Source: Stentor roeselii
Taxonomy: Eukaryota; Ciliophora; Heterotrichea; Heterotrichida; Stentoridae
Direction: 5' to 3'
Assembly: GCA_006503475.1 (NCBI GenBank)
Contig: RSEH01000381.1
Coordinates: 1-30,725, forward strand
Length of the DNA stretch: 30,725 bases
Notes under the pieces: model-generated
Database searches by the model: none
What the model was told of the DNA's origin: nothing
Seen by the model: the letters and a program-made list of their open reading frames with translations, nothing else
Program-made: the position numbers and the translations under genes
Shown here: positions 1 through 30,725 of the stretch, piece by piece
Numbering within the stretch: the stretch's first letter is position 1
Layout of the letters: each line of letters opens with the position of its first letter

Positions 1-1830
1 GATAGCAGCTTTGACTTTATCACCGTTTCCAAGTATTCTTTGATAAGCATCTCGAAGAGTCCTTCTCGGAATATTTGCAAGAGCGGATTTAAGTTTTTGA
101 GACTTGAGCATATCTAAAAACCCTTTTTTATCAATTTGATTGGCATAGTTGATCCACTTTTTAATAGCATCTCTAGGTTTTCTCTTGACTTGATTAAACA
201 TTCCAACAATAACTCCTTTAATTCTATTTCCGTTTCCAACAATTCTCTGATGAGCGTCTTTAAGAGTCCTTCTTGGTACCTTCGACAAAGCATTTTTCAG
301 CATTTGACTTTTAGCAGCATCCATCGCCTTTTTAGTCTTACAATCATGAACATAATTTTTCCAAAGATTAAGAGCATTTTTCGGTTTCCTTTTAAGTGCA
401 GCAATAATATTCGCAACTTGTCCCTTAATTTTATCTCCTCCTCCAACAATCCTTTGTTCAGTATCCCTTAAAGTCCTCTTCACAATATTTTGCATGGAAT
501 TTTTCAGTTTCTGACTTTTCAGATTATCCATGAGTCCTTTTTTATTAACATCATTCACAAACTTAGCCCACTTAACAACAGCTAACTTTGGTCTTTTCAT
601 GATATTCGCAAGTGCTCTAATAATGATTCCTTTAGCAACATTGCCATCTCCAACAATTCTATTAAATGCATCTCTAACACGTTTTTTCGGTACTTTATTC
701 AATGCATTCAGGAGTTTTTCTGACTTTATATTATCCAGAAGATTCTCTTCTTTCACATCAGCGATGAATCTGATCCACTTAATAAAGGCAAGCTTCGGCC
801 TTTGCCCTATCAAATGAAAGATTCTCGCCAAAAGTCGCTTTGTTTTGTCTCGGTCACCAAGGAATCTGTCGCAGCTGGATCTTAAAACTCTTCTCGGCAA
901 GGGCATTAATAATAAAGCTAAAACTTTTGCTCTGTCTTTTTCTCCAGATTTTTTTATTTTTCCTGAAATTTTTGAAAAAGCGTCACGTAAGGTTCTTTTA
1001 GGAACTCGGTTTAAAGAGTCTGAAAGTTTTTGAGATTTTAGACGATCTATTAGGACTTTTTTGTCACAGTCTGATGCGAATTTCAGCCATTTTAATAAAG
1101 CTTTTCGAGGACGTTTTTTTATTTTTCCTAGAATGCATCTGATGGATCCTTTGGCTTTGTTGCCATCTCCAACAACACGACTAAAAGAGTCTTTAATTGT
1201 CCTTCGAATCACTTTATTAAGCACAAAGTTAAGTTTGTTACTATTCGAATTATCCAAAATCTGCTTAGTTTTAACAAGTGTGACATACTTTGTCCATTTA
1301 GTGAAAGTGATTTTCGCCTTTTTCTTAACAACTCCAACAACACACTTAAGCGCTCCCTTAACTTTTTCACCTCCACCCAAGATCCTTTTTTCCGTATCAA
1401 GTAACCTTCTAATCAAAATCTTGACCATGATTTTCTTAAGAGCAGCAGAAGTGGCCTGTTTAAACCTTTTTTTATTTTTCACTTCACTACTAAAGTTTTT
1501 CCAAAGATTCATCGCATTTTTCGGTCTAAACTTGAGTTTTTCCACACAAAAAGCCAAAGACCCCTTAACCCGACTTCCATGTCCAAGAATTTTTTCAGAA
1601 GCAGTTTTAAGTCCATTATTTGAAAGAATTCTTAAAATTTCCTTAAGTCTTGCAGTTTTAAAGTTATCAAGAACTGAGTTATTTTTCAAGAGTTTTGCGA
1701 TATTTTTCCATGTGAAAAAAGAATCTTTTCGTTTAGATTCAAAGCTTCCCACAAGTTTCTTTAAAAGACTCATGACCTTCCCAGTTCCAGTACTTTGTAC
1801 CATCTGATTGAAAAGTCTTCGAAAAGGTTT
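1..1830 (-). repeat. Tandem 207-nt (69-codon) protein-coding repeats
   Basis: The conserved Trp codon (CCA on the + strand) occurs at 154, 361, 568, 775, 1087, 1294, 1501 and 1708. All steps are exactly 207 nt except 775 to 1087, which is 312 nt. The next Trp, at 1909, is 201 nt away. A second landmark, the G-x-G-x-[KR]-x-KG motif, keeps the same period. Units are clearly diverged in DNA, so this is an old protein repeat and not a recent satellite. The array continues past the left edge. Confidence 0.85.
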
Positions 1831-4392
1831 AATCATCAAGTTCATAAGTCGAGCCATTCTATAATTATCCAACATTTCCTTCTTTCCACAGGAATCTTTG
1901 AAATCTCTCCAAGTCTTAAATGCGAGGTTAAGTCTTTTACTGAGTTTATAAACAACACTGATCACAAGTGAATTTTTACTGTTTTCATAGTCAATCATTT
2001 CATCGCTATTCTTCTGAGCTTTCCACCTGTTAAAAGAAACTCTTATATTTTCAGCGTATTTCTTGTTGTACTCTCGCCAAACATGCTTTAAAATCGTTAC
2101 ACGTTTCGTACTAAGAAGAGCTTTAAAAGTAAGCAGTTTAAAACGTGCCCTGAAGACTTTGTGAACAGACATGACAAGTTTCGCGGTACCATCAGCTCGA
2201 TGAACACATTTTTTTGCTTGGTTTATTTCTTTCCATCTGCTAAAAGCGTATTTTGTAGGATTCGCCATCATGTGCATCGCCTTTGCCACGGATTTTTTCT
2301 TGTCGTTGCCTGATTCGATTAGTTTGAAGTACTTCCATCTCAACATTCCAATGCGAAGAGCCCAGTCTTTCACGTGGGTTAACTTTCGAATGCATCTTCT
2401 CATTATTTGGTCTGCGTCTTTTATTATACGTGGAGGGTTGAATACTCTTTTGCCTTTGCAGGTGAATATTCGGTGGATCACGGAAATCATTGCGAAGAGT
2501 TGACGTGAGTTGTTTTTTTTTACTTGACGCCAACGGGAGAAAAATGCGATTAATACCATTTTGGGATATTTTGCTAGGTTTCTGAGTAGGTATTCTTCTA
2601 CTTTGCCTTTTATATTCTTTCTACTGATATACTGAAACCAATTATTAAAAACCTTCGTCTTCGCCCACAACAAATTTTTACACAAAGCAACAATAGCATT
2701 CGACAATATTTCATCATTCGGTTTCTGACTTTTAGGCATAAGAAAGCAAGTTTTAGCATTTCTAGAAACCGCTTGATTAAGCATAGCAATAAAAACTTCA
2801 ACTTTCCTTTTTTTATCCACATGAATCTGAGAATCATTTTTGATGACCCAGGTTCTAAAAACTTGCGCAATCCTGATATTGAAAATCTTGAAAATAAGTC
2901 CAATTGTAGCCTTTTTAAAAGCTTCATTCAAATCATGCGGAACCCTTTCCAGTGCCTTTACAATAGACTTATTTTTCCATCTCAAAAGTGCGATTTTAAC
3001 AGAATTCGAGAAAAGAATCGCTTTCGAAGCAAGTGTTTCAAATATTTCCGTATTTTGCTGAACCTGTCGATATTCAATTGTTTCTTCCACATATTTCTCT
3101 TCTTTCAGCAACATGGAGTACTCAGGAAGGTAAAAAATCAGTTTTGAAAAACTTGGCCTTAGCAAGTTTTTTAAAGTGAATAAACCTTTCGACATGCGGG
3201 AGAACTTTGAAGACTTGCGAAGACTTTCGACTTGCCAGCGACTCAGAGCAGAAGAGGCGAGTCCAACTTTTTGACTGTTGATTTTTCTCATTAAAGAGAT
3301 AAGACCTGCGAATTTTCCCTTGTTTCTAATGCGATTTGAAAGAGAATTAACTAAAATCGCGATTTTTTCAGATTTTTTCGAACTTAAAAGATGATTTTCA
3401 GTCATTTTTTGAAGAAGGTCTTTTAAGTCCTTGTCGGTGATTTGGTCTTTTGGAGGTTTTTCTGATCTTGTTTTGACGACTCTGGTGATTTTCTTTCGAT
3501 GTTCTTCTTCTTCTTCTTCGAACTCTTCGTACATCTGGTCTCCTTGCCAGGACTTGAGGACAAGGACTTTGGCGAAGAAGAGGCGAAGTTCAGTTCTTTG
3601 AAGGACTTTCAAGAAAAGATGCTTTTTGCGTTCCCAGGGCGGAACGCAGAAGTCTTTTAATCTTTTCAATGATATCTTTTTTAACATTGCTTGACGAAGA
3701 CTGTTCGCCATTTCTGTTGCACTTTTCAGACGCTCTTCGTATTGCTTTAAGGTTTGGACTACTAGTCTCCATCTCCAGAAGGCTTGCTGTTCGAATGCGA
3801 GAGGACTGTACATTACGAGAGCTTTAACTGAAGTTAGACGCTTTTCTTGTCTTTGGAATAAAGTTAAAGTGTTTTTTCTGAGGATTCTCTTTGGCTGGGC
3901 TTTAATCTTACTCCAACGTTCAATAGTCTTTTCCATGGAAACCCCTAAATTCGCCTTAATTCCTGAAATAAGTCTTGCACAATGAAGTCTTTTAATTTCC
4001 AAGTCTTTTCCAGCACAACAAGCTTCAATTTTTAAACTGCAAAAAGCGCTTTGTGTAAAACTTTGAGATTTGATTTCAATTTTATAAAGCGCATGAAAAA
4101 TAGCCGCGACCTTCAAACCAGTGCAAATTTTTGTCAAATGAGACAAAGAAGGAAGGCTTGAAGCTTGTTTGATTTTCGACAAGTAAGAAGTGAATAACGA
4201 GTGATCTGCCCTTGAAAGGCGTCCTGAGTCCAGCATTGATGAGCTTATTCGAGACGCTGACTGAATCGTGGACTGAGGAGAGGTCTTTAGAAGCTTGTGT
4301 AGCTTCTCGCTGCTTTCTTTGTAGCTCCGAAGGTCTTCTGGCCGGCCTGAGAGAACCTCCTCCAGGAGGATTGGAAGATTTTGGCTTTCCAT
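1..4392 (-). CDS. Giant Trp-repeat (Sfi1-like, putative centrin/spasmin-binding) protein, 5' part
   Basis: The reverse strand is open for 1464 codons from ATG at 4392 to the window edge, so the gene is cut off on the left. An in-frame TAA just upstream (4396-4398) supports this start. The protein is basic and helical, with about twenty motifs of the form hydrophobic-x2-W-[KR], for example AFSRWKEI, AFKTWRDF and ALNLWKNY. They resemble Sfi1 repeats, whose Trp helices bind centrin. They are irregularly spaced in the N-terminal half. From about 1911 down to the edge they fall into tandem units of 69 residues. Each unit has a half ending in a motif like RIVGNGNRIKG and a half with [KL]W-[KIA]-x-[FY] followed by a KK/LD stretch. 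Sfi1-type proteins organise centrin fibres, and giant spasmin-binding proteins of contractile heterotrichs are also built of repeats, so a contractile-fibre or basal-body scaffold is likely. Family assignment is inference; full length is unknown. Confidence 0.68.
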   Translation of the reverse strand, partial: MESQNLPILLEEVLSGRPEDLRSYKESSEKLHKLLKTSPQSTIQSASRISSSMLDSGRLSRADHSLFTSYLSKIKQASSLPSLSHLTKICTGLKVAAIFHALYKIEIKSQSFTQSAFCSLKIEACCAGKDLEIKRLHCARLISGIKANLGVSMEKTIERWSKIKAQPKRILRKNTLTLFQRQEKRLTSVKALVMYSPLAFEQQAFWRWRLVVQTLKQYEERLKSATEMANSLRQAMLKKISLKRLKDFCVPPWERKKHLFLKVLQRTELRLFFAKVLVLKSWQGDQMYEEFEEEEEEHRKKITRVVKTRSEKPPKDQITDKDLKDLLQKMTENHLLSSKKSEKIAILVNSLSNRIRNKGKFAGLISLMRKINSQKVGLASSALSRWQVESLRKSSKFSRMSKGLFTLKNLLRPSFSKLIFYLPEYSMLLKEEKYVEETIEYRQVQQNTEIFETLASKAILFSNSVKIALLRWKNKSIVKALERVPHDLNEAFKKATIGLIFKIFNIRIAQVFRTWVIKNDSQIHVDKKRKVEVFIAMLNQAVSRNAKTCFLMPKSQKPNDEILSNAIVALCKNLLWAKTKVFNNWFQYISRKNIKGKVEEYLLRNLAKYPKMVLIAFFSRWRQVKKNNSRQLFAMISVIHRIFTCKGKRVFNPPRIIKDADQIMRRCIRKLTHVKDWALRIGMLRWKYFKLIESGNDKKKSVAKAMHMMANPTKYAFSRWKEINQAKKCVHRADGTAKLVMSVHKVFRARFKLLTFKALLSTKRVTILKHVWREYNKKYAENIRVSFNRWKAQKNSDEMIDYENSKNSLVISVVYKLSKRLNLAFKTWRDFKDSCGKKEMLDNYRMARLMNLMIKPFRRLFNQMVQSTGTGKVMSLLKKLVGSFESKRKDSFFTWKNIAKLLKNNSVLDNFKTARLKEILRILSNNGLKTASEKILGHGSRVKGSLAFCVEKLKFRPKNAMNLWKNFSSEVKNKKRFKQATSAALKKIMVKILIRRLLDTEKRILGGGEKVKGALKCVVGVVKKKAKITFTKWTKYVTLVKTKQILDNSNSNKLNFVLNKVIRRTIKDSFSRVVGDGNKAKGSIRCILGKIKKRPRKALLKWLKFASDCDKKVLIDRLKSQKLSDSLNRVPKRTLRDAFSKISGKIKKSGEKDRAKVLALLLMPLPRRVLRSSCDRFLGDRDKTKRLLARIFHLIGQRPKLAFIKWIRFIADVKEENLLDNIKSEKLLNALNKVPKKRVRDAFNRIVGDGNVAKGIIIRALANIMKRPKLAVVKWAKFVNDVNKKGLMDNLKSQKLKNSMQNIVKRTLRDTEQRIVGGGDKIKGQVANIIAALKRKPKNALNLWKNYVHDCKTKKAMDAAKSQMLKNALSKVPRRTLKDAHQRIVGNGNRIKGVIVGMFNQVKRKPRDAIKKWINYANQIDKKGFLDMLKSQKLKSALANIPRRTLRDAYQRILGNGDKVKAAI

Positions 4393-13318: not shown

Positions 13319-14479
13319 ATGGACACTCTCGAAAGATGGCAGTACAACCACCTTCATGACCTGCACAAAAAGAAGCTGGAAATGATCCAAACTCAAAGCA
13401 GCAGTAAAAGAATCGACAACTCGATTCCAGAAACTTTAAATATAAACCGAACAAAAGTTTCATCATTTCAAACAATAAAAAATCGTGAATTCCAAGACAT
13501 TTACAAGAAAAATCAAATCTTATTCGATGCTTTAGAGGATATCAAAAAGCGAAAAGTAAAATTTAACTAGAAACGAGCACCTTCAGTAGATGTTTTCACT
13601 CCTTCGTCTCTAAATATATACAAAAGGAAGAGAGATATTGAAAAAATCACGAGGGAAAATGGACTTATTCATCAGAAACTCACAAGTAAAGAAGCTACTC
13701 TTTCTATGAAACAACTTGATAGAGACTACCAGATTTCCCTTAAGTATAAAAAGAATCTTTCGAAAAAGTTCTTGATTGACAGTCCAAAAAAACCTGAAAA
13801 AAAGAAAAAACTACCAAAAATTGGAAAGGAAAAAAATAAGGACGTAAAAGAAACGAAGGACATAAAAGAAAAGAAAGAAAAAAAAGAAAAAAAGGAAAAA
13901 AAAGAAAAGAAGGAAAAAAAAGAAAAGAAAGAGAAAAAAGAAAAGAAGGAAAAAAAAGAAAAGAAAGAGAAAAAAGAAAGGAAGGAAAAAAAAGAAAAGA
14001 AGGAGAAAAAAGAGAAAATGAGTAGAAATAGTGGTAGCGATATTGAAGAAAATGAAAAAGCTGAAATTCAACAGGATTTAAAAGATGATAAACCTGAAAT
14101 TGATTTGATTCAGGATCCTAAACTTCAAGAAAATCATAAAAATGATGAGCAGAAAAAGAAAAGTCTAATACTCGATAGAAAGAAGTCAAGTGATGACCAA
14201 GAAATTACTGGAATATTGAATCAAAATGTTAACATTGATTTGATAAAAAAGTTTTCTTTAAGGGAGATCATTTCTTCTCCACAAATGTTCCTTCAGGATA
14301 AGCAAGACCTAAAATTAATAAAAAACAGATCCTCACCAGCGGAATCTAAAAATACTTTCAATTTCGAGCCTAACCCTGATCCTCAGATTAAAGCCTCAAA
14401 AAGCATAAAAAGTTCATCATCAAGTTCATCAAAATCCAAAAAGCAAATCTCAAGGAGTAGTTCATCATCAAATAACTAG
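13319..14479 (+). CDS. Lys/Glu-rich protein with possible CFAP97 (Hemingway)-like region; one 15-nt intron
   Basis: Two open segments join after removing a 15-nt intron (13556-13570, phase 0). Exon 1 gives 79 codons and exon 2 gives 302, total 381 aa. ATG at 13319 is chosen; the frame extends upstream only through a TTG. Residues about 75-140 read KRKRDIEKITRENGLIHQKL, then a stretch ending in YQISLKYKKNLSKK. This I-x3-EN-x2-L...Y-x2-N pattern resembles CFAP97/Hemingway ciliary proteins, but the match is by eye and modest. Next comes a long KEKKEKK tract, then an acidic/polar region and a Ser/Lys-rich tail. Splicing, not the identity, is the firm part: without it the frame stops at TAG inside the intron and no second start is plausible. 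The eIF2B gene begins 35 bp after the stop on the same strand. Confidence 0.8.
13556..13570 (+). other. 15-nt spliceosomal intron
   Basis: GTAAAATTTAACTAG, phase 0, joins codons for RK and KR. It has GT/AG ends and TTAA at positions 8-11, probably including the branch adenosine. If retained it adds an in-frame TAG. The size and pattern match two other introns in this window. Confidence 0.85.
13864..14018 (+). repeat. 155-nt pure purine tract coding for Lys/Glu repeats
   Basis: Every base on the + strand from 13864 to 14018 is A or G. The tract encodes repeated KEK and KKEKKE units, with a loose 18-nt period in which GAAAAG, AAGG and long A runs alternate. It sits inside the gene at 13319-14479 and stays in frame. 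Confidence 0.9.
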
Positions 14480-15569: not shown

Positions 15570-16517
15570 CTAATACTCGATGTCCATCATTGTGTCATTT
15601 GTAGAACTGGCAAAGTCAGTACTTCGATCTTCCAAGTGATTATCATTATTCCAGTCAAGAACCCTTTTAAAGTAAGGCATAGGCCTGGCTTTAAACTCAG
15701 CCTGCTTTCTTATAACTTTCATTTCTTCTTCATCCTGCATGGCTTTAAGCCTAGCTTCTTCTTCAAGATTCGCAATTCGAGCCCTTTCAAGTTCCTTGAG
15801 CCTTTCCTGAAACATTTCTCTATCCTTAGCCCTTTTAGTGCTATGCAGTTCAATTTCCATAAATCCAGTACTTTCCTTCAACCCATTAGAAACAAACGAT
15901 CCTTTCGAATGACTCCGACTGTGAAGGCTTACCAGGGCAGGTTCTTCTCTCTGAAAAGAAGAAGAATGTTTTAAACAAGAATTCGAAAAGCCCTGTCTCG
16001 AAACTTCTTCAAAAGTTTTTCCTTTCTTAGGAGTAATGCAAGGCTGCCATGGTTTTGAAAAGTCAGGCATTGGCCGAGCCCTAAAAGTCTCTACCTGAGT
16101 CATGAGCGGCTTTTTCGGTGAAGGCGACGTCAGGTTGAACTGCTGAGGGACAGTCACTTGTTTTTCAACTGGCTTCTGCAGGGTAAAAGGCTGGTAAAGC
16201 GATCGCGGGATTGGCCTTGCTCGAAATTTCTGCCTTTCTGAAGATTTCACGTCTTTTTCCAGGTTTTTTCCCTGCAGCGAGTTGTTTCGAGAAGACTGAA
16301 AAGTCGAGTCTTGCCCAAAGTCGCTGGAATCTTGCCACCCGCTTTGAAAACCAGAGAAGGCGGAAGTTTTAACTGCTTGGACTCCATTTTCCAGTTTTCG
16401 TCTTCGACTGTCTCCAAAAATGGTGCCAGTCGCAGGGGTGAATTGTCTTTTTTGAAGAGTTTCAGGCAAAGGATGGTCAAGGGCACTGACTTGGGCGAAG
16501 GGTAAAAAGTGATTCAT
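15570..16517 (-). CDS. TPX2-like microtubule-associated protein
   Basis: 315 aa from ATG at 16517 (MNHFLPFAQ); the frame continues upstream only to a TTG. The protein is mostly disordered and carries three spaced copies of F-[RK]-ARP-[IM]-P: FRARPIPRSLYQPF, FRARPMPDFSKPW and FKARPMPYFKRVLDW. The last copy follows a charged helix, about 50 residues of E/R/K-rich sequence. This combination of helix and KARPMP is typical of TPX2-family domains, which bind microtubules and promote their nucleation at spindles in animals and plants. Here the expected role is at spindle or cortical microtubules. The gene is head to head with a kinesin gene, only 58 bp apart. The family call is fairly secure; the exact function is inferred. 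Confidence 0.75.
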   Translation of the reverse strand: MNHFLPFAQVSALDHPLPETLQKRQFTPATGTIFGDSRRRKLENGVQAVKTSAFSGFQSGWQDSSDFGQDSTFQSSRNNSLQGKNLEKDVKSSERQKFRARPIPRSLYQPFTLQKPVEKQVTVPQQFNLTSPSPKKPLMTQVETFRARPMPDFSKPWQPCITPKKGKTFEEVSRQGFSNSCLKHSSSFQREEPALVSLHSRSHSKGSFVSNGLKESTGFMEIELHSTKRAKDREMFQERLKELERARIANLEEEARLKAMQDEEEMKVIRKQAEFKARPMPYFKRVLDWNNDNHLEDRSTDFASSTNDTMMDIEY

Positions 16518-16575
16518 TTCAAATATTAACGTACAGAAAAAGTAAAATGGAAAATCGACTATTATAATAAACCGA
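16518..16575. promoter_or_regulatory. 58-bp shared divergent promoter
   Basis: The start codons of the TPX2-like gene (-) and the kinesin gene (+) are only 58 bp apart, and the strip is AT-rich. Both transcripts must start from it, or each must start inside the other gene. This suggests coordinated expression of two microtubule-related genes. Confidence 0.7.
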
Positions 16576-18627
16576 ATGGACAAGGACTTGGAACTGCAAC
16601 AAATGAAGGATTATGTAAAGTCACTTGAATCCGAGTATTTAGAGTGATTTTTAAGCAGGTATCAAGAACAGAGCAAAGAACTGGAAATGAGTCTGGAACA
16701 GGAACTTGCAAACGCTGAGGAGAAACTTAAGAAATCATTGGTTAAAGTTCAGGATTTGGAAGAGGAACTTGCGAAATTTAAAGAAAAGTACCAGAAAGAC
16801 CAGGCAGAAATTGTTAGATTACACAAGGAAATAGATTCTTTAAGAAAAAGCTTGAAAAGGTTTGAAGAACGTCGAAGGGAACTGGAAGATCTGAATGATC
16901 AATGGGAAAATTCAAGAAGGGTCTTGGAGTATTCTAATAAGGATTTGGAAGAAAGGCTTTACCAGGCTGAGGAAAGTGTCATTATGTATAAGGAAGAACT
17001 GGATGAGGTTAATTCGCTCAAAGAAGCTGAAATGCAAAGGCTTAGAGATGAGGTCAAGGACTTGAAACATGAACTCACTGTTCTTGTTAGTCAACATGGG
17101 GATGCTGATAAAATCGCTGAACTTGAAGAAGCACTTGGTAAGGCGGAGCATGAACGACATCAACTTAAGCTACAGCTTGATAAGTCTAAAATTCCAGAAC
17201 TCGAGACTTTCAGCACTGTATCGGTTTATGTCAAGGTTAGACCTTTTTTACCGTCTGACTCTACTAAGGTTCCTGGAATCTCTTCCAATTCCACTTCAGT
17301 GATTTTACTCCCAGTGAAGGACAAGTCCAGGCAAATCATGCCAAAATCATTTGAATTCGAAAAAGTTTACGGTTGTAAAGAAAACCTTGATGACATTTTC
17401 AACGATTTGCTACTTTCAATCAATCATTTCGCAGCAGGAGGTACTTGTTGCATAATGTCCTACGGGCAGACAGGATCAGGAAAGACTTTCACAATGAATG
17501 GCCTGATATCAAAAACCTTAGATTTACTCTCCTCGATACTTTCAAACGACGCGAAAATTTCATTTCACTGCATCGAAGTTTACAATGAGCAAGTCCGAAA
17601 CCTGTTGTCTGACGGTCAGTTAAGCAAGAACTGGAAGGATATCATTTCTATTTCTCAGATACAACTTCAAAGCGACTGGTATACGACTGTCAAAAAACTT
17701 ATACAAATCGCTTCAGCGAAAAGAGCCACAAAGTCAACTGACTGTAATGAGCAGTCTTCACGAAGTCATTGCATTTACACATTTTTCTTATCAATGCCTA
17801 ACCGGAAAAGCATCATGCAGTTTGTCGACCTGGCTGGAAGTGAGAGGATTTCAAAAAGTTCAGTCACAGGAGATACTTTAAAAGAAGCTTTACATATAAA
17901 TAAGTCACTTTCTGCACTTCAAGATGTGATCGCTGCTCTTGAAAGTAAGAACTCACATGTTCCTTACCGGAATTCACTTTTAACAAGAATTTTGAAACTT
18001 TCTTTATCAGCTTCGAGTAGTAAAATATCAGTCATTTTGAATTGTAGTCCGACTGAAGATAGCATAAATGAAACGATTTCAACTCTAACCTTGGGACAAC
18101 GACTAAAAAGCATTGACTTGTCTTGGGCCATTCGGAAGAATATTAAAACTGAAGAGGTTGAGAGGACTCTTGACCTGTTGGAAAAAGAAAGAAATGAAAA
18201 AAATAGCCTCATTCGAAAATTAGAAAAACTTGAAAGAGACCTAGACGGCTACATCACTGCTTTAAAAGAAAGAGACAATAAATTAGCCAATTTGACTTCA
18301 AAGTTGAAACAAATCGAAAAAACCGCCTCCGAAGAAATCGACTGTTTGAGAAAAGACTTAAAGTTTTCTAAAATAAAAAATGAAGAAATCACTAAAAAGT
18401 TCATCCTCGTGAAGACAAAAGCAGACAACGAAAAGCCAAAAAAACCTTCAAAGCCCAAGAACCCAAAGCTTTTATTTCCCACCAGCCCAACTCCAAAGAC
18501 TGAAAAATCAAGTATCACTCCTCTTCTAACTAAAGAAAAGAAGTCAATCGACACTCTGAACCTCTCCATATCATCCAGAATACCAAAACCCGGATATATA
18601 TCATGTAATACGTCTAAATTAATGTAG
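16576..18627 (+). CDS. Kinesin motor protein (kinesin-14-like layout), one 15-nt intron
   Basis: The start is ATG at 16576 (MDKDLELQQMK). A 15-nt intron at 16644-16658 (phase 2) connects this short exon to the long frame, giving 678 aa. Order: N-terminal coiled coil to about residue 200; motor domain about 209-510; second coiled coil and a basic Pro/Lys/Ser-rich tail. Motor motifs are complete: VYVKVRPF, P-loop GQTGSGKT near 292, FHCIEVYNEQVRNLL, switch I NEQSSRSH near 386, switch II DLAGSE near 413, and HVPYRNSLLTRIL. The long coiled coil before the motor resembles kinesin-14, often minus-end directed, but more than 160 residues follow the motor, which is unusual for that class. An exon-2 ATG at 16687 could serve as a start but would lose 32 residues of continuous coiled coil. 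Confidence 0.92.
16644..16658 (+). other. 15-nt spliceosomal intron
   Basis: GTGATTTTTAAGCAG interrupts the kinesin gene in phase 2 and restores a Glu codon when removed. It has GT/AG ends and TTAA at positions 8-11. Retention puts a TGA in frame. Confidence 0.85.
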
Positions 18628-18700: not shown

Positions 18701-20158
18701 ATGTTCACGATGCAACAAACTCAAGGCGGCCCGCGCTACTCCAGCAAGGTGCTGATCGGCAACTGGAGTGAAGACGTTGAACTGGAGCAAGTGCGTTTCA
18801 AAGACTTTCTAAAAAAGCGAGAGACTGGGCAGCTCTCAGTGCATCAGGTTCAAGGAAAAATTGCGAAGTCATTAGTGCCAGTCGGCCACAGCTTTTCTCC
18901 AGATGGAAAGCTGAGGTTCGGAGATAAAATCATGCTCGGCAACCAGAAGACCCGAGGACTGCTCGCGGCAGATGTCGGAGACCGAGTACAAAGCACTGGC
19001 TTCGCTTGTGCCGTGACTAGTTCGCCTTTTATTACTGGGCCGGTGTCGAGAGCTGTCTTTATTTTAACCAGAGTTAATGCGAAAGACGGGTTCCCTGGGG
19101 ATTATCTTCATTATGGACAGGAGTTCACTTTGGCCACGCATCCTCGATTGTTCCCGGATAGTCTTTTTTTGTATTCGGCTACTGTCACACCTTATAGCTT
19201 TGCAAAGTTTTCTAGGTTTCAAGAGGTCTCCATGAGTAGTGTCAAAGGACCTAATACTATTTGGGTCGCTGAACATGCGGATTCTAGAGTTAGGTTTGAA
19301 AATCAAGGAGTTCCTGTTACTGCTAATTCGGATGTTGTTATCAAACATAATCAGACTGGTCAGTGGCTGAGTACAGACCATATCAACTACCGCAACGATT
19401 TCGGAGTGGAATTCGAAGTGAGTTGCCATTCATATCTAGACACCAGAAAAACCCAGCAGCTTTCATCAGAAAAGGTAGGAAAAGTCACAGGCGACATAGC
19501 AACTCGTCTTCAAGGCTTAGAAAACGTTTGGCGAATTTTCACATCCGAAAGTCCAGACCAAGCCGAAGAAAAAGAAGAAGTCTCAGTAGCCCCTCCAGAA
19601 GTGATTTTAAACAACGTAAAGCGAACCCTTCTCGAAAGAGGAGCATACGGAATCAGAGGTTTAGCAAAAGTATTCAAAAACATGGACGACAACGGAAACC
19701 GTCTTCTGGAGCCAGAAGACTTCAAATGGGGTCTGATAAACTACGGAGTATACCTGAAAGACGATGAACTCCGTAGTTTAATCAAAGCTTTTGATAGAAA
19801 CGGTGACGGAGTCGTCAACTTTGACGAGTTTTTAACGACTTTAAAAGGCCAGATGAATGAAAGACGACTGAAACTAGTGGCTCAAGCCTATGAAAAACTT
19901 GATGTGAACAAGGATGGACGAGTGACTCTCGATGACATTGCAAAGCTTTACGATGCCAGCAAACATCCAGAGGTCAGAAACGGCCGAATGACTGAAGAGC
20001 AGGTTTTTAGCCAGTTTATTTCAATGTGGGACACTGAAAAACCTGATGGAATCGTGAGTTTACGAGAATTCGCCAGGTATTATGAGGATATCAGCGCAAG
20101 TGTCGACTCTGATGACTACTTCGAAGCTGTTATTAAAAGCGCTTGGAATCTTAGATAA
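18701..20158 (+). CDS. CFAP161-calcyphosin-like fusion, ciliary protein
   Basis: 485 aa. The first 280 residues follow CFAP161, a microtubule inner protein of ciliary doublets, along their whole length: VLIGNWSEDVELEQ, KDFLKKRETGQL, LHYGQEFTLATH, RFENQGVPVTANSDVVIKH and a final HSYLDTRKTQ. After a short acidic linker comes a calcyphosin-like unit: LLERGAYGIRGLAKVFKNMD, then EF-hand loops DDNGNRLLEPEDF (about 328), DRNGDGVVNFDEF (about 364), DVNKDGRVTLDDI (about 401) and a changed fourth loop DTEKPDGIVSLREF (about 444). Loops 2 and 3 have good Ca2+ ligands; loop 1 has Asn/Arg at some ligand positions, and loop 4 has an extra residue. In animals these are separate proteins. The protein probably sits in cilia and may make the doublet lumen Ca2+-responsive. 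The frame is continuous, so the fusion is real in this sequence. Confidence 0.88.
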   Translation: MFTMQQTQGGPRYSSKVLIGNWSEDVELEQVRFKDFLKKRETGQLSVHQVQGKIAKSLVPVGHSFSPDGKLRFGDKIMLGNQKTRGLLAADVGDRVQSTGFACAVTSSPFITGPVSRAVFILTRVNAKDGFPGDYLHYGQEFTLATHPRLFPDSLFLYSATVTPYSFAKFSRFQEVSMSSVKGPNTIWVAEHADSRVRFENQGVPVTANSDVVIKHNQTGQWLSTDHINYRNDFGVEFEVSCHSYLDTRKTQQLSSEKVGKVTGDIATRLQGLENVWRIFTSESPDQAEEKEEVSVAPPEVILNNVKRTLLERGAYGIRGLAKVFKNMDDNGNRLLEPEDFKWGLINYGVYLKDDELRSLIKAFDRNGDGVVNFDEFLTTLKGQMNERRLKLVAQAYEKLDVNKDGRVTLDDIAKLYDASKHPEVRNGRMTEEQVFSQFISMWDTEKPDGIVSLREFARYYEDISASVDSDDYFEAVIKSAWNLR

Positions 20159-25442: not shown

Positions 25443-27479
25443 ATGATAAGGCTTTTATTTTTAGTCTCTATAGGAATTTGTTTACATATTGAACAGCTAC
25501 CAAAGTCAAGATCCCCTCCAGAGAGACTGATTCACTCAACTTCTGCTACGGCAAAGTCGACGGTCTATCATTACGGTGGAGAAAAATCAGATAATACTTT
25601 TAGTTCTTCATTGTTCGCTTATGATTCATTGAATTTTTACTGGGAAGAAATCATTCCTCAGTCATCATTACTACCTCCAGCTTTATCTCGAAGCAAGTCA
25701 TTTATTGATTCTAAAAATCAATTTAAAGTGTTGTTTGGTCTGAACGAAAACAGAATCTCGGAAGTTTTGTACTCTTTCAATCTGGAACTTTTACACTGGA
25801 CTCAAGAATCCTTAACAGGAGACTTGATTTACCCTTCAATCGACTCAGCAGACTGCCTGTTTACCTTTAGGTCTTCCAGATATTTAGCCTTATACGGAGG
25901 TGTATCATCATCTGGAATCCTGGACACCTTTTATTTGTAAAACTTAATCAGAATCAACACCGAAACCTTAGAAGTGCAAAGCAAAACGCAAGGTAATCCA
26001 GGGAAAATGACTGAAGCGTCTCTAGTCTTCCACAACGATTTCTCTACCTATTAGGAGTCCAAGACAAAAATCCCTATTTGTTCTTTATTTAAACTTGACC
26101 TAACTACTAGCCTTTGGTCAGAGGTAAAAACGAAAAACGTGGTTCTTTCAAGAAAAGGGCAAATATCTGTAGTCTTTAATAATACCTTGCTCGTCTTTTT
26201 TGGGTATTCGGGAAGTCAGAAGTTTGTTGAAATGCTTGAACTAGACCTGCTGAGCTTACAATGGGAAAGCTCAAACAGTGAGGAGTATCTTTATGGGTCA
26301 TCGGCTCAGATGTTTCAGAATATGGTGATTTTTTTACTTGGAAGAACTGTAAAAAGCTATCAAAACTCACTTCGAGCGTATTTTTTTGAAAGTCGAAGCT
26401 TACAGAACTTAACTTTTTCAAGTGATTTTCCTGTTGCCAGGAAAAATCATGTAAGTTGGGTTTACAGCAACTCAGTTTATATTTTTGGAGGGGTTGGCTC
26501 TGATGGGGTTTTCTTGTATGATATTTGGAAATATGATGTTAAGGTTCATAGGTGGGAATTTGTGCAGACTACTGGAGAACAGCCTGAACCGAGAGAGCTG
26601 GCTGGAAATGATTTTATTCAAGGGACTGGGCTTGTAATTGTAGGTGGAAGGTCAATAAATTCAATTCTCTCTGATTTTTATTTATTTCTTCCAAAATCAC
26701 TCATCTGGGTTCCATACAAAACATCAGGGGTTAAGATGAGTCCTCGTCACTCTAGCTGCGTCTACACCTATATGTTCAAAACTCTCATATTTGGAGGCCA
26801 AGACGAAAAATCCGCCCAAAATGATTTCTGGTCTTTCGACTACACTTCAAGTACTTTCACAAAACTGGAAATCCAAAACGAAAAAATTTTAAAAATAAAA
26901 AAATATCGATGCGCATTCGAACAGAAAATTGATTCTCTTTCTCTTTACCTGATTGGAGGCTCGACTGAAAACAACGAGGTAAATGACTCAGTCTTTAAAA
27001 TCACGTTGACTGACTTTCCGAATGAAAACCAAACTATTGAGGCAACATTCCACTGGAAAAGCGATTATTTGATGTTGCAAGACTTTTCATTGCATATGGA
27101 CAACTCATGGACTTTCCTCATAGGAGGCCGATCAGGTCGAGAGCTTTCCAAATCGATCCTGAAGCTCAGCCTTCGCGAAAAGACTATTGAAGCCTACCCT
27201 GTCTCTTATATGCTCTGGGTGACAAGTCATACTTCTGCCCATCTTGGTCAAAATTTGTTTATATTTGGAGGGGTTTCTTCAAAAAGTGGATTTTTTACCA
27301 GTTCTCGCCCGAAAAATCAACTGTTCAAACTAGAGGACTTGAATCTCACTTGTCGCTTCGGAAATATTACTGGAAATAAATGCTCGCCTTGCAACCTGGA
27401 TATTTTTGGACCTCGGGAAAGTGTCTACCTTGTTTTAAGAACTTTTAAGGCCTCTGGCAGCTGCATTGTAGACACCTGA
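25443..27479 (+). pseudogene. Secreted kelch-repeat protein, frame-disrupted
   Basis: ATG at 25443 opens with a likely signal peptide (MIRLLFLVSIGICLHI) and kelch-type strands such as YLALYGGVSSSGILDTFYL. A 15-nt intron at 25937-25951 continues the frame. The frame then reaches TAG at 26052. A better kelch strand, YLLGVQDKNPYLF, lies one frame over (26045-26083), and the first frame returns at about 26088 with FKLDLTTSLWSEV. So a one-base loss near 26040 and a one-base gain near 26085 compensate each other. The later part has many kelch units (VYIFGGVGSDGVFLYDIWKY, LIFGGQDEKSAQNDFW, LFIFGGVSSKSG), then CRFGNITGNKCSPC and a TGA. Past TGA and a nearby TAG the same frame still looks protein-like (TWGFSKQSSSFRQGF). 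I call it a decaying gene; base-calling errors could explain the first lesions. Kelch repeats form propellers for protein binding. Confidence 0.7.
25937..25951 (+). other. 15-nt spliceosomal intron
   Basis: GTAAAACTTAATCAG in phase 2 of the kelch reading frame; removal restores a Leu codon and continues with INTETLEVQSK. GT/AG ends and TTAA at 8-11 as in the other two introns. Retention gives TAA. Its intact form shows that the gene was functional recently. Confidence 0.75.
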
Positions 27480-27569
27480 TGCTAGACATGGGGATTTAGT
27501 AAGCAAAGTTCGTCTTTCCGTCAAGGTTTCTTAATAAATGTACGACACGATCCGAATCTCAAAACTTAG

Positions 27570-28237
27570 GCATCCAACTCTAAATCTTCTTCTACAATTC
27601 TGCAGCTTTCAGACTGAACCAAACGTAGAGGATTTATTCGAATTTTTCATTGATCTGAATTTGGAGAATTTTCGTGATGACTTGATAGTCTTGTTTTTTC
27701 ATTACTTCTAAAACAGTGGCTTCGATACATTTCACATAAAATACCTCGGCCGGTCTTGAGAAGCCCATTTCGCGGAAAGACTGCCTGACAAGAAGTACTG
27801 TGATTTCTTTTTAATAAGGGGGTTGGTGTTTACTTGGATTTTTTTTGGCGAGAGTTTGATTTCGAAAATTTTCTTCTTCTTATGCTTCGAAAGGCTCGTT
27901 GGATAAAATTCTTACGCTGCCTTTCAGCATGAAGAAAAATCCCTGGCCTTCACCATCAAGACAGACGTAGTTGTTTGTGTTGAAGGAATACACTGATATG
28001 AATATGCAAATTCTTGGTGCAGTTTAAAGACTCTTCTTTTAGGTCTTGAAAGAATTTTAAGTTACTTGTTTGGCTGCTGATTGATTTTATCTGAAAGACT
28101 TTGGCTCGTCTGGAGGGATTCGCAGAAAGTCGATCAAGAAATGAACTGAAAGACCATTTTCTCTTACTCCCTGAATTTACTGGAAGATGGAAGTATAAGA
28201 TGAGATTATTTGAATAAGTAAAAGAGTTCTGAGGCAC
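27570..28237 (-). pseudogene. Relic of a cyclic-nucleotide-binding-domain protein
   Basis: Reverse-strand fragments line up in the order of a cNMP-binding domain. From about 28237 to 27956 one frame contains NLKFFQDLKEESL and CTKNLHI. A shifted frame then gives NYVCLDGEGQGFFFMLKGSV and RIL (27900-27972), matching the EGD...FFIILKGSV strand. A TAA follows at 27880-27882 and another at about 27811. The same frame then resumes with VLLVRQSFREMGFSRPAEVF, KCIEATVLEVMKKQDYQVI and a TAA at 27634-27636; the SFGEM-type phosphate-binding cassette here reads SFREM. Further down, a third frame gives VQSESCRIVEEDLELDA. Stops plus at least two shifts, and no ATG start, mean it is broken. Intact relatives in ciliates act as cAMP/cGMP sensors. 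Confidence 0.65.
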
Positions 28238-28249
28238 CAGAATCTATCA

Positions 28250-29440
28250 TTAAAAAAAAATCAGTCTCAAACAATCCAAAATTCAACACTCCAACTCTTA
28301 AAATCCTGATCACCTTTAAACCCTTCTAAATTCCTCAATTTTCATCCAAGCCCTAAAAAATAACTACCTCGAATCTTTTCCGATCATCAAGTTTTCCCAA
28401 TCAACTCAGTCTCAAACCTACTAAAAACAGATGATGAATAGAAAATGAAATTTGTAAAAAGAAATTGAAGGTGCTACCCTCATTACGTGGTTGCACACGA
28501 AGGAAAGCTGTTGATCAGCGAAAAGCGCATCACAATTGTAACAGGAGAGTCCAGGAAAAGCTTCTAAGGAGACGATGGACATAGACTAGCTGCTAAATTG
28601 CTGGGGAGTTATCACCGATGATCAAATGTCAACTCCACTTAGACGCCTGAGAAGTCATCCTGTCAGTCCTCTGAAGGACTATATCTGATGTTTATCATGA
28701 TTAAACCACACTGTCTACACTTCAAACATCAACGATGACTCCAACTCTTCTTACACAACAACTCTCTTGCACTTCTAGAAAGCTCGTCAATTACAAATCA
28801 AAATGCAGAAATTATATATTGGAGAATTAGATCTTGCCCAACTTTTATCAGACATCAACAAAGAGAAAATTTATTTTAAAATATCATCCTCAATCGAAAA
28901 TTGAATTTTCTATGATTAAGATTGCTTTGAGAAAGTCTGAAATATTTCAAAGAATGGACAAATCTTGATAGTCATAACATTGAAATCATTCGATGTTGTG
29001 ATGAATATTTCAAGGATATAGATAGAAGGAATTTATAGGAGATTTGAGACATAAATTTACTTGAATCACTCACGATCTCTTAATCTAAAACAAGAATCTC
29101 TTTAAAAAATCAACAAAACTATCAAAAATTCAATCAACCCATGAGGACCTTTCCGGGATCCTTAAAAATTTATCGATTCTGCATCAAAAGCCCTAAACGA
29201 CTGAGAAACTCTTCGAAAATTCACCAAAAAGTCTGCTTCAACTGAAAAACTCTCACTTCTATATCTTTAGATCAAGAAACTGCTTCAACCCGTAAATAAA
29301 CCAGAAATTTCACAAACTCTTTTTTGAAAGATGGTAGAAATCATCAAAAATCACTTAGAAACGATCAAAGATAAGGTAAAACAGTGGAAAAGGAAAATTC
29401 TTTGAACAATTGAAAATGAATTAAGAATCCTCTGATGGAT
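28250..29440. other. Non-coding or heavily decayed stretch
   Basis: No intact gene. At 28469-28621 (+) a less AT-rich part has 32 open codons (including HYVVAHEGKLLISEKRITIV), then TAA, then 17 more protein-like codons (GDDGHRLAAKLLGSYHR). I do not recognise the family. The remainder is AT-rich with frequent stops in all frames. Confidence 0.45.
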
Positions 29441-29443
29441 TAA

Positions 29444-30529
29444 TGGAAAGTCTCGTCTTTCGTTGATAACATTGGAAAGATTATTTCTATTTCTCTCAGC
29501 AAGTCTGGAATTTTCTTTGTTTTCAGGTCTGAATACTTTACTATGAGAGTTTTCAACGTTTTGATAGAAGAATTGAATGTATTATGATTATATCTGGGAA
29601 TAATTTATGTGTTAAAATGAGCGATTCAGAAAAACTCGTGATTTCTGGTTCAGATGATAAAACAGTCAGGGTGGATTCAGCCTCAAAAAAAATTGAAAAT
29701 CTTGGGAATCATATCAAAGGGTTAAATGATTTCCTTGTCAGATAATTGATAGGTATTCAATCAGTTCAGGTGCTAATGAAAAAGCTTTCGTTTTAAAACT
29801 GTCAGAAAATTTGATTATCTTAAAAGTGATTATATCAGCGGACTAATCAAACCATTGTTCAATAGTCCAGGCACTTTTGTATAAGATCGTAATAAAAGCT
29901 TGAAAACTAATTCGATTTTAAGATTGGATTTCAAAGAATTTTGTATGAACATCTATCAGCTGTTTTACTCTTTGCAATGACAGGAAGAATGCATTATTAG
30001 TGTTTAGATGCCTTTATTTGATAATAGAAATATGGTTCAGCAAGATCATACAATTTCGGCAAATTTTTATCAACCCTAATCAATTGAAAGGACGTTAATA
30101 GATCTTCGGCTACATTCCAAAGTCAGTTTTTTTATATCTCTTAGATCAGGAGACAGAACTTCTACAAATCTTTAACAAATGCAAGGATGTTAAACTTATG
30201 CATTTAAAGAGCACACTCTATAATACCCATCCAGTATTTTTATTTATCCTAAATAACTCTATCGCATTTTATAAGATGCCTGAAGATGAATCGAGAGGTT
30301 TATATCTTTTCTTATTTCGACGCAATTGTTTCAATTACTTCCGATGACAATACTTTATTGTTATTCCCATCATTAACAACCAAGTTTCCCTTTTTAAATC
30401 GAGCTCGTCAAAGTAATTTGGGAACTTCTAAGGCATAGCTGTAAAGTGACTAATCTTGTGATAAGTAAAAGCAACTAAAGTATTATCTCGACTTATTCAA
30501 AGGGAGAGTTGAAAGTATGGACTCTGTAA
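29444..30529 (+). pseudogene. Relic of a WD40-repeat protein
   Basis: Several WD40-like blades can be read but in different frames. 29444-29587: SFVDNIGKIISISLSKSGIF then MRVFNVLIEE. 29617-29745: SDSEKLVISGSDDKTVRV, the clearest blade, with the expected Trp of the closing WD missing, then a TAA. About 29750-29830: YSISSGANEKAFVLKLSENL. 30102-30347: 81 open codons with LDQETELLQIFNKCKDVKL and FLFILNNSIAFYKMPEDE. 30313-30438: DAIVSITSDDNTLLLFPSLT. 30401-30529: LLRHSCKVTNLVISKSN, an in-frame TAA at 30476, then STYSKGELKVWTL. The order is consistent with one ancestral propeller protein interrupted by several indels and stops. It may continue beyond the right edge. WD40 propellers are protein-binding platforms; the original function cannot be told. 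Confidence 0.65.
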
Positions 30530-30725
30530 TAGGTTGCTTTGGTATCTTGTTTCATCTTTAATCCAATAATTTTACTTTTAATGCTTTCCAGCAAGAAACT
30601 CTTTCACTTAGAGCTTAAATGATAAGACAATCGCCTTGCACGGTCTTCAAGACTCTCTCGAGATCAGCAAGTTTGAGATATGTCTAACTATTTTGAAGAG
30701 TTTATTCTTTTCACATGATGATTTT

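Follow-up and report, generated by a model that had tools for sequence, protein, structure and literature searches.

The window, i.e. the whole stretch of DNA analyzed here, is an entire contig of 30725 bases (C323; the C-labels denote contigs of one assembly of 44.4 Mb and 522 contigs). Its minus strand carries, from position 4392 to 1, an open frame of 1464 codons without a stop codon, which is truncated by the contig end at base 1, so that the 3' side is missing. The frame (residues 1-1464, 1..4392) encodes a giant repeat protein that starts with an N-terminal head (residues 1-180, 3853..4392). This head is common to C432, C307, C378, C118 and C51, where it was aligned, and to C339, where it was recognized from the frame. 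It is followed by an irregular region (residues 200-810, 1963..3795), in which the spacing of the Trp residues is uneven (2-104 residues) and which contains a weak unit-like match at residues 692-729. At residues 812-855 and 871-920 (1633..1959) there are two degenerate units, to which a profile built without window sequence gave 30.3 and 29.4 bits.

The regular part of the array, on the same strand, begins with three copies of a 69-residue unit: residues 928-992 with Trp 964 (1417..1611, 52.0 bits), residues 995-1061 with Trp 1033 (1210..1410, 56.7 bits) and residues 1063-1130 with Trp 1102 (1003..1206, 73.3 bits). The series is interrupted by a 35-residue insert without Trp (residues 1131-1165, 898..1002), whose first 18 residues scored 7.2 bits. 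By eye the insert looks similar to an extra helix B; it gives a Trp spacing of 104 = 69 + 35 residues, which is also found in C432 and C165. Four more units, all included in the AlphaFold2 model below, occupy residues 1166-1234 with Trp 1206 (691..897, 72.3 bits), 1235-1303 with Trp 1275 (484..690, 80.9 bits), 1304-1372 with Trp 1344 (277..483, 84.2 bits) and 1373-1441 with Trp 1413 (70..276, 76.9 bits). The start of the next unit (1..69, 23.7 bits) is truncated by the contig end.

A unit profile built from other contigs only matched the whole window protein with an E value of 2.7e-159. The same profile, which holds no window units, resolved the protein into 12 stretches: seven are near-full units (65-69 residues, 52-84 bits), two are degenerate, another two are weak, with 3.9 and 7.2 bits, and the last is cut by the contig end. 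The autocorrelation of the protein, computed for lags 10-159, peaked at lag 69 (7.9 SD) and lag 138 (4.9 SD). The initial annotation had described units of 69 residues; the autocorrelation at lag 69 and the independent profile bear this out from about residue 812 onward. Its remark that the array has no sign of an end is also correct, but the end is a break in the assembly, and the C-terminal halves of sister genes are located on other contigs.

The remainder of the contig contains genes of other kinds. Two spindle-type genes, a TPX2-domain gene on the minus strand and a kinesin gene on the plus strand (motor at residues 206-476 of 646), adjoin each other at 15570-18627. The plus-strand gene at 18701-20158 encodes EF hands fused to a CFAP161-like domain; there are many other EF-hand frames of ~460-530 residues in the genome, which perhaps constitute a large family of their own. 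A tandem repeat of 18 bases in 9.3 copies (13846-14013) encodes a run of Lys and Glu. A Kelch-repeat gene on the plus strand (25443-27479) has an in-frame TAA (25938-25940) and an in-frame TAG (26052-26054). The sequence is by eye coding-like on both sides; the gene may be decaying or subject to rare read-through. No open reading frame of at least 100 residues (table 11) occurs at 27500-30725, and the WD40-like fragments recognized there by eye on the plus strand from ~29600 onward are perhaps the remains of a decayed propeller gene.

The window protein, used as a query against the genome, gave at least 84 matches, which are spread over ten contigs including the window itself. A search with the C-terminal tail found eight contigs (C118, C165, C144, C436, C513, C343, C339 and C51), including three newly detected ones (C144, C513 and C339); the match in C51 was weak (E 2e-20 over 150 residues). 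The head was located by search on six contigs (C323, C432, C307, C378, C118 and C51); C339, which was missed by both the whole-protein search and the head search, raises this number to seven by its frame. Altogether 13 frames on 13 contigs were read, that of C51 for only 2746 of its 2996 residues. Head and tail are both present in C118, C51 and C339; C513 has the tail with a different start, and C487 is an internal piece. Four N-terminal ends (C323, C432, C307 and C378) and four C-terminal ends (C165, C144, C436 and C343) break off at contig ends. Because there are eight different tails, the genome must contain at least eight related genes, or twelve if none of the halves pair. The longest complete frame, in C118, has 4783 residues with 55 unit matches. 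C513 is an array-poor sister, and C339 (1162 residues from its Met) has the head and the tail with 0 unit matches. The initial annotation had suggested that the window gene may be the counterpart of the giant spasmin-binding proteins of Spirostomum; with at least eight related genes present, it is not a single counterpart.

No exact join of contig ends was found, i.e. there was no suffix-prefix overlap of at least 8 bases among the 5 x 3 ends compared (C144 was not among them). Candidate pairings were judged by shared 25-mers and by a tree of the tails. The shared 25-mers numbered 53 between C432 and C165, 480 between C378 and C487, 72 between C487 and C436, and 11 between C378 and C436. A tree of seven tails (without C51) grouped C436 with C343 (support 94/95) and C165 with C144 (97/94), and the tree of the heads gave no resolved groups. 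It is only a guess that the window gene continues in C144. In C487 (5400-7200) units abruptly adjoin a stretch that by eye resembles phospholipase D, with stops between the two; this is either a mis-assembly or a real break.

Four of the eight C-terminal tails were examined for leucine heptads; the hydrophobic fraction at positions a and d was 0.61-0.67 as compared with 0.41-0.49 after shuffling. The p values for these four tails were 0 of 2000, 0.002, 0.02 and 0.06, i.e. significant in three of them. Such coiled-coil-like heptads suggest that the chains may pair. The structure model of the head is all-helical and of moderate quality (pLDDT 67.9, pTM 0.41).

The unit consensus, PRRTLRDAFQRIIGDGDKVKGALKRLINGLKRKPKKAFDKWKKYVEDVKNKKLLDNLRSQKLKNALERI, was derived from 253 seeds that were picked by Trp at a spacing of 69. 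A profile of this consensus gave 299 matches, of which 268 reached at least 20 bits. They are distributed over 12 of the 13 frames, and 260 shuffled sequences (20 per frame) yielded none. Lag 69 was within the top two lags in all 10 frames that were autocorrelated. The array periods differ between the genes: some follow a pattern of 69-69-69 and others one of 69-69-72 (= 210), and C432 has a super-period of five or ten units plus the 35-residue insert. When units are compared with each other, synonymous sites have reached saturation, with a median pS of 0.71-0.78 per frame at a pN of 0.41-0.50. Recently copied units exist only in some frames, such as C487 with 81% nucleotide identity at lag 3 and C432 with 66% at lag 5. 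The Trp is kept in 204 of the 211 full-length units (40 bits or more), a count that is biased upward because the seeds were chosen by Trp. All 13 frames are very basic, with a net charge of +8 to +12 per 69 residues.

For a structural model, four window units (residues 1166-1441) were submitted to AlphaFold2 together with 34 sister rows; five of 40 four-unit rows had been left out, three of them clearly out of register and two with a minor deviation (260 and 265 of 276 positions). The model (pLDDT 79.4, pTM 0.28) predicts two helices of 31-32 residues each per unit, one at positions 18-49 with Trp 41 and the other from position 52 to position 13 of the unit that follows. The breaks fall at N50-K51 and G14-x-G16. 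We are fairly sure that the predicted helix borders are reliable; the arrangement of the helices is not given by a model with this pTM. No PDB chain matched the four-unit model in Foldseek. The idea that helix A and helix B are homologous halves was discarded after a self-comparison of the profile, in which shifts of 33 and 36 were above the mean but below shifts of 7, 26, 3 and 40.

Next to its repeats, the window protein was said to contain about twenty Sfi1-like Trp motifs. This holds for the loose motif: there are 25 Trp residues, and 22 of them have a hydrophobic residue at W-3. It does not hold for the strict minimal motif [FLW]xxW[KR], the minimal centrin-binding motif as used in excerpts of PMC10180636, which occurs at only 8 of the 25 Trp. 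Even this number was reached by none of 5000 residue shuffles (mean 0.97, maximum 7), and a control of ten other, hand-chosen open reading frames from the window had two such motifs in 5944 residues. In ten frames of the family the form [FL]xxW[KR] occurs 160 times, while 300 shuffles gave a mean of 14.2 and a maximum of 25.

The positions around Trp 41 of the unit are conserved as well, with F/L at position 38 in 65%, Y/F at 44 in 73% and V/I/C/L at 48 in 83%; unlike the Trp itself, its neighbours played no part in the choice of the seeds. Centrin targets are described by the motifs 1-4-8 and 8-4-1 in the available text of PMC8622359. The site of the unit fits both directions, as [FL]38-W41 in the 8-4-1 form, with Pro at position 8, and as W41-[YF]44-[VICL]48 in the 1-4-8 form; the forward 1-4-8 form is present at 11 of the 25 Trp of the window protein. 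At W-7, 63% of the 253 unit seeds have a Pro. The strict pattern LLxxx[FL]xxW[KR], by which the full consensus AX7LLX3F/LX2W was judged, is absent from the ten frames, and a relaxed pattern with any two of LIVMF in place of LL occurs six times (shuffle mean 1.3, maximum 4, 300 shuffles). Few sites thus come near the full Sfi1 consensus, and by this consensus the scaffold is not Sfi1, since the LL is missing and Pro stands at W-7.

A comparison with Sfi1 profiles had been proposed in the initial annotation as a check, with the lack of a match counting against its reading. The Sfi1 profile (PF08457) had no match in the window or in the sister frames searched, but the PF08457 control was silent too (0 of 14 genomes). 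The scaffold sequences had no relevant match in the PDB, and no Sfi1 chain was among the results. One round of the Pfam search took in three sister frames, C118 only up to residue 2354. Weak matches of the arrays were considered and rejected as the result of chance or composition; in C343 these were DUF3150 (28.3 bits, cut-off 24.9), CaM_bdg_C0 (20.6 bits, cut-off 20.2) and SCRE (27 bits, cut-off 27). In the remaining array frames searched, no Pfam match was above the curated cut-off.

The scaffold shares with yeast and human Sfi1 (PF08457, PDB 2DOQ) the minimal motif [FL]xxW[KR] and a helical repeat, and its predicted helices of 31-32 residues are close in length to the centrin-binding region of ~33 residues given in excerpts of PMC8622359. 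It differs from Sfi1 in that there is no profile match, the AX7LL part is missing, a Pro is located at W-7 and there is only one Trp site per 69 residues. Furthermore, yeast Sfi1 is one long helix according to the same excerpts, whereas breaks are predicted here between the helices. The label "Sfi1-like" would nevertheless apply by the practice for divergent proteins, which are named by an excess of the motif, without homology, in the text available from PMC10180636.

The genome also contains a large set of potential partners; 150 EF-hand matches were scored out of 1155 candidates. Five near-identical EF-hand proteins of 176 residues (L043-L047), whose genes are distributed over five contigs, have a protein identity of 95-100%, and the genes differ at 54-76 of ~103 synonymous sites and at 0-18 of ~425 other sites. 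Such old, frozen copies are in keeping with a protein that is needed in bulk. L043 has four EF-hand stretches, and its nearest solved relatives, among the best 60 of 205, are caltractin (1.3e-58) and centrin-2 (8.4e-56); within the same 60, calmodulin chains mostly scored ~1e-41, with the exception of a calmodulin-calcineurin fusion (4il1, 4e-55). Judged by these relatives of L043, the five proteins are classified as centrins. Among the matches to this centrin listed (of 156), at least 31 extend over 146 residues or more with an identity of at least 40%, and another five are shorter; the 31 are not all centrins, because L054 is a likely calmodulin. The net charge is -17 for L043 and -8 to -24 for seven other EF-hand proteins. 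Centrin-like matches were also seen within longer frames of 426-644 residues (C281:192055-193140, C344:92094-93326, C247:136259, C40:223953, C237:90033 and C429:67371); those in C281 and C344 have two matches per frame and look like tandem or fused centrins. A centrin-like antigen has been located in the myonemes of Stentor, as stated in part of PMC8017755.

These data agree in part with the giant centrin scaffold that was initially postulated. The great size, the many centrin-type Trp sites, the large centrin set and the heterotrich-like telomeres described below are all in its favor, but neither a profile match to Sfi1 nor the full consensus was found. Centrin-laden backbones are thought to let ciliates shorten very fast without ATP. 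We consider it probable that the scaffold is an Sfi1-like carrier that would bind centrin or spasmin, most likely as part of Ca2+-driven myonemes. The gene product would be a giant, very basic and helical protein made of the head, the region of uneven Trp spacing, a long array of two-helix 69-residue units and a C-terminal tail with a coiled-coil-like end; such a tail is probable in the window gene because its sister genes have one. Since each unit has one centrin-type Trp site, the array would carry a long row of acidic centrin or spasmin molecules. A rise in Ca2+ would change the shape of the bound centrins, neighbouring units would be drawn together and the array would shorten; removal of Ca2+ would allow it to return to its extended state. 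The heterotrich myonemes may be built jointly from several of the sister scaffolds and many centrins. This scheme is modelled on the Paramecium lattice as outlined in excerpts of PMC6189993 and on statements about Spirostomum in parts of PMC12661445 and PMC13035854.

A more specific version of the scheme must be called tentative. The 69-residue unit may be a centrin-binding module of its own, composed of a Trp helix and a helper helix, and not a Sfi1 repeat. The fibres might then be a copolymer of several giants, in which super-periods (69; 69-69-72 = 210; the C432 insert) set the spacing of the centrins, and the array-less C339 might be the head-and-tail form from which the giants grew.

The family could, on the other hand, consist of scaffolds of the Sfi1 type that belong to basal bodies, rootlets or the oral apparatus and bind centrin to place and anchor basal bodies, not to contract. 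We consider this unlikely, as the length of the array (a frame of 4783 residues) and the number of sister genes seem to be beyond the needs of a basal-body link. However, Tetrahymena Sfr1 and Sfr13 act on basal bodies according to excerpts of PMC5483020, some of the centrins in this genome will presumably serve basal bodies too, and the array-poor C513 and the array-less C339 could be members with this task.

So basic an array might also have other acidic partners. If it were a basic helical scaffold for calmodulin, tubulin, nucleic acid or a membrane, the Trp would serve in packing instead of binding centrin. This explanation would account for the net charge of about +10 per unit, the missing profile link to Sfi1 and the Pro at W-7, and a 12-residue match in C343 to a calmodulin-binding family (20.6 vs 20.2 bits), probably due to chance, could be added. 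It is improbable in view of the Trp and the positions W-3, W+3 and W+7, which are kept in the pattern of a centrin target, and of a centrin set that is large and partly frozen. The breaks of four N-terminal and four C-terminal ends at contig ends within arrays, together with the abrupt joint in C487 between units and the phospholipase D-like stretch (by eye), could even raise the suspicion of a functionless repeat expansion or an assembly artefact. This is very hard to reconcile with synonymous sites that are saturated while the protein is conserved, with frames of up to 4783 residues without stops and with heads and tails that are shared between genes.

The centrin/spasmin scaffold that we favor has likely counterparts, by description only, in GSBP1 and GSBP2 of Spirostomum minus, a ciliate that probably belongs to the same class as the host of this DNA. 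These are reportedly giant spasmin-binding proteins with regular repeats, encoded by two genes (said to be from Zhang et al. 2023, Sci Adv). The two systems are alike in giant size, many repeats and centrin- or spasmin-type partners in the genome, and the giant regular array is present here in the form of the 69-residue units and the complete sister frame of 4783 residues. They differ in gene number, with two genes reported there and at least eight related ones here, one of them without an array. A centrin-Sfi1 fishnet is said to exist in Spirostomum ambiguum (reportedly Lannan et al. 2024, bioRxiv); it is alike in idea, by description, as Ca2+-binding centrins on a long scaffold would power fast contraction.

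For Spirostomum, centrin on a repeat scaffold in contractile nets is mentioned in parts of PMC12661445 and PMC13035854. In the infraciliary lattice of Paramecium, PtCenBP1 is the centrin scaffold (excerpts of PMC6189993 and PMC5483020). It resembles the present family in its repeated centrin-binding sites, extended scaffold and many centrin genes, but comes from another ciliate class and is likened by description only. PfSlp of Plasmodium was also named for its excess of minimal motifs without clear homology to Sfi1; unlike the scaffold found here, it has 407 kDa and acts at the centriolar plaque, and the available text of PMC10180636 describes no 69-residue array. In the accessible parts of the open-licence literature we found no description of such a scaffold family in another heterotrich. 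The principle, a centrin scaffold shortened by Ca2+, is known from Paramecium and Spirostomum and is not new. What appears to be new is the size of the family, the two grammars of the arrays and the array-less sister. With its heads and tails, and with members that are rich in units or have no array, the scaffold family and the centrins of the same genome provide a concrete parts list, and the regular spacing of the units makes the shortening model testable.

The contig ends provide information on the host. Three repeats of CCCTAACA had 547 exact matches in the genome and the reversed control had 0; among the matches listed, they start at bases 3-8 of a contig or lie at high coordinates (in C31 up to 250809 of 250816). 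In part of PMC9942806 this repeat is described as the telomere of Blepharisma, so that the telomeres are heterotrich-like and the host is probably a heterotrich. Four candidates for 15-nt introns were found, three of which start with GTA; a length of 15 nt was not enriched relative to other lengths. Tiny introns are typical of heterotrichs, and the four candidates resemble them. Unlike in the Blepharisma code, it is not necessary to read TGA as Trp, as frames of up to 4783 residues are open, and the genetic code of the host is probably the standard one. As a guess, the host could be a Stentor or a Spirostomum; an exact SSU rRNA pattern had no match in the genome. Elsewhere in the genome, FAM161A_B gave four matches above the cut-off, on C194, C407, C239 and C182.
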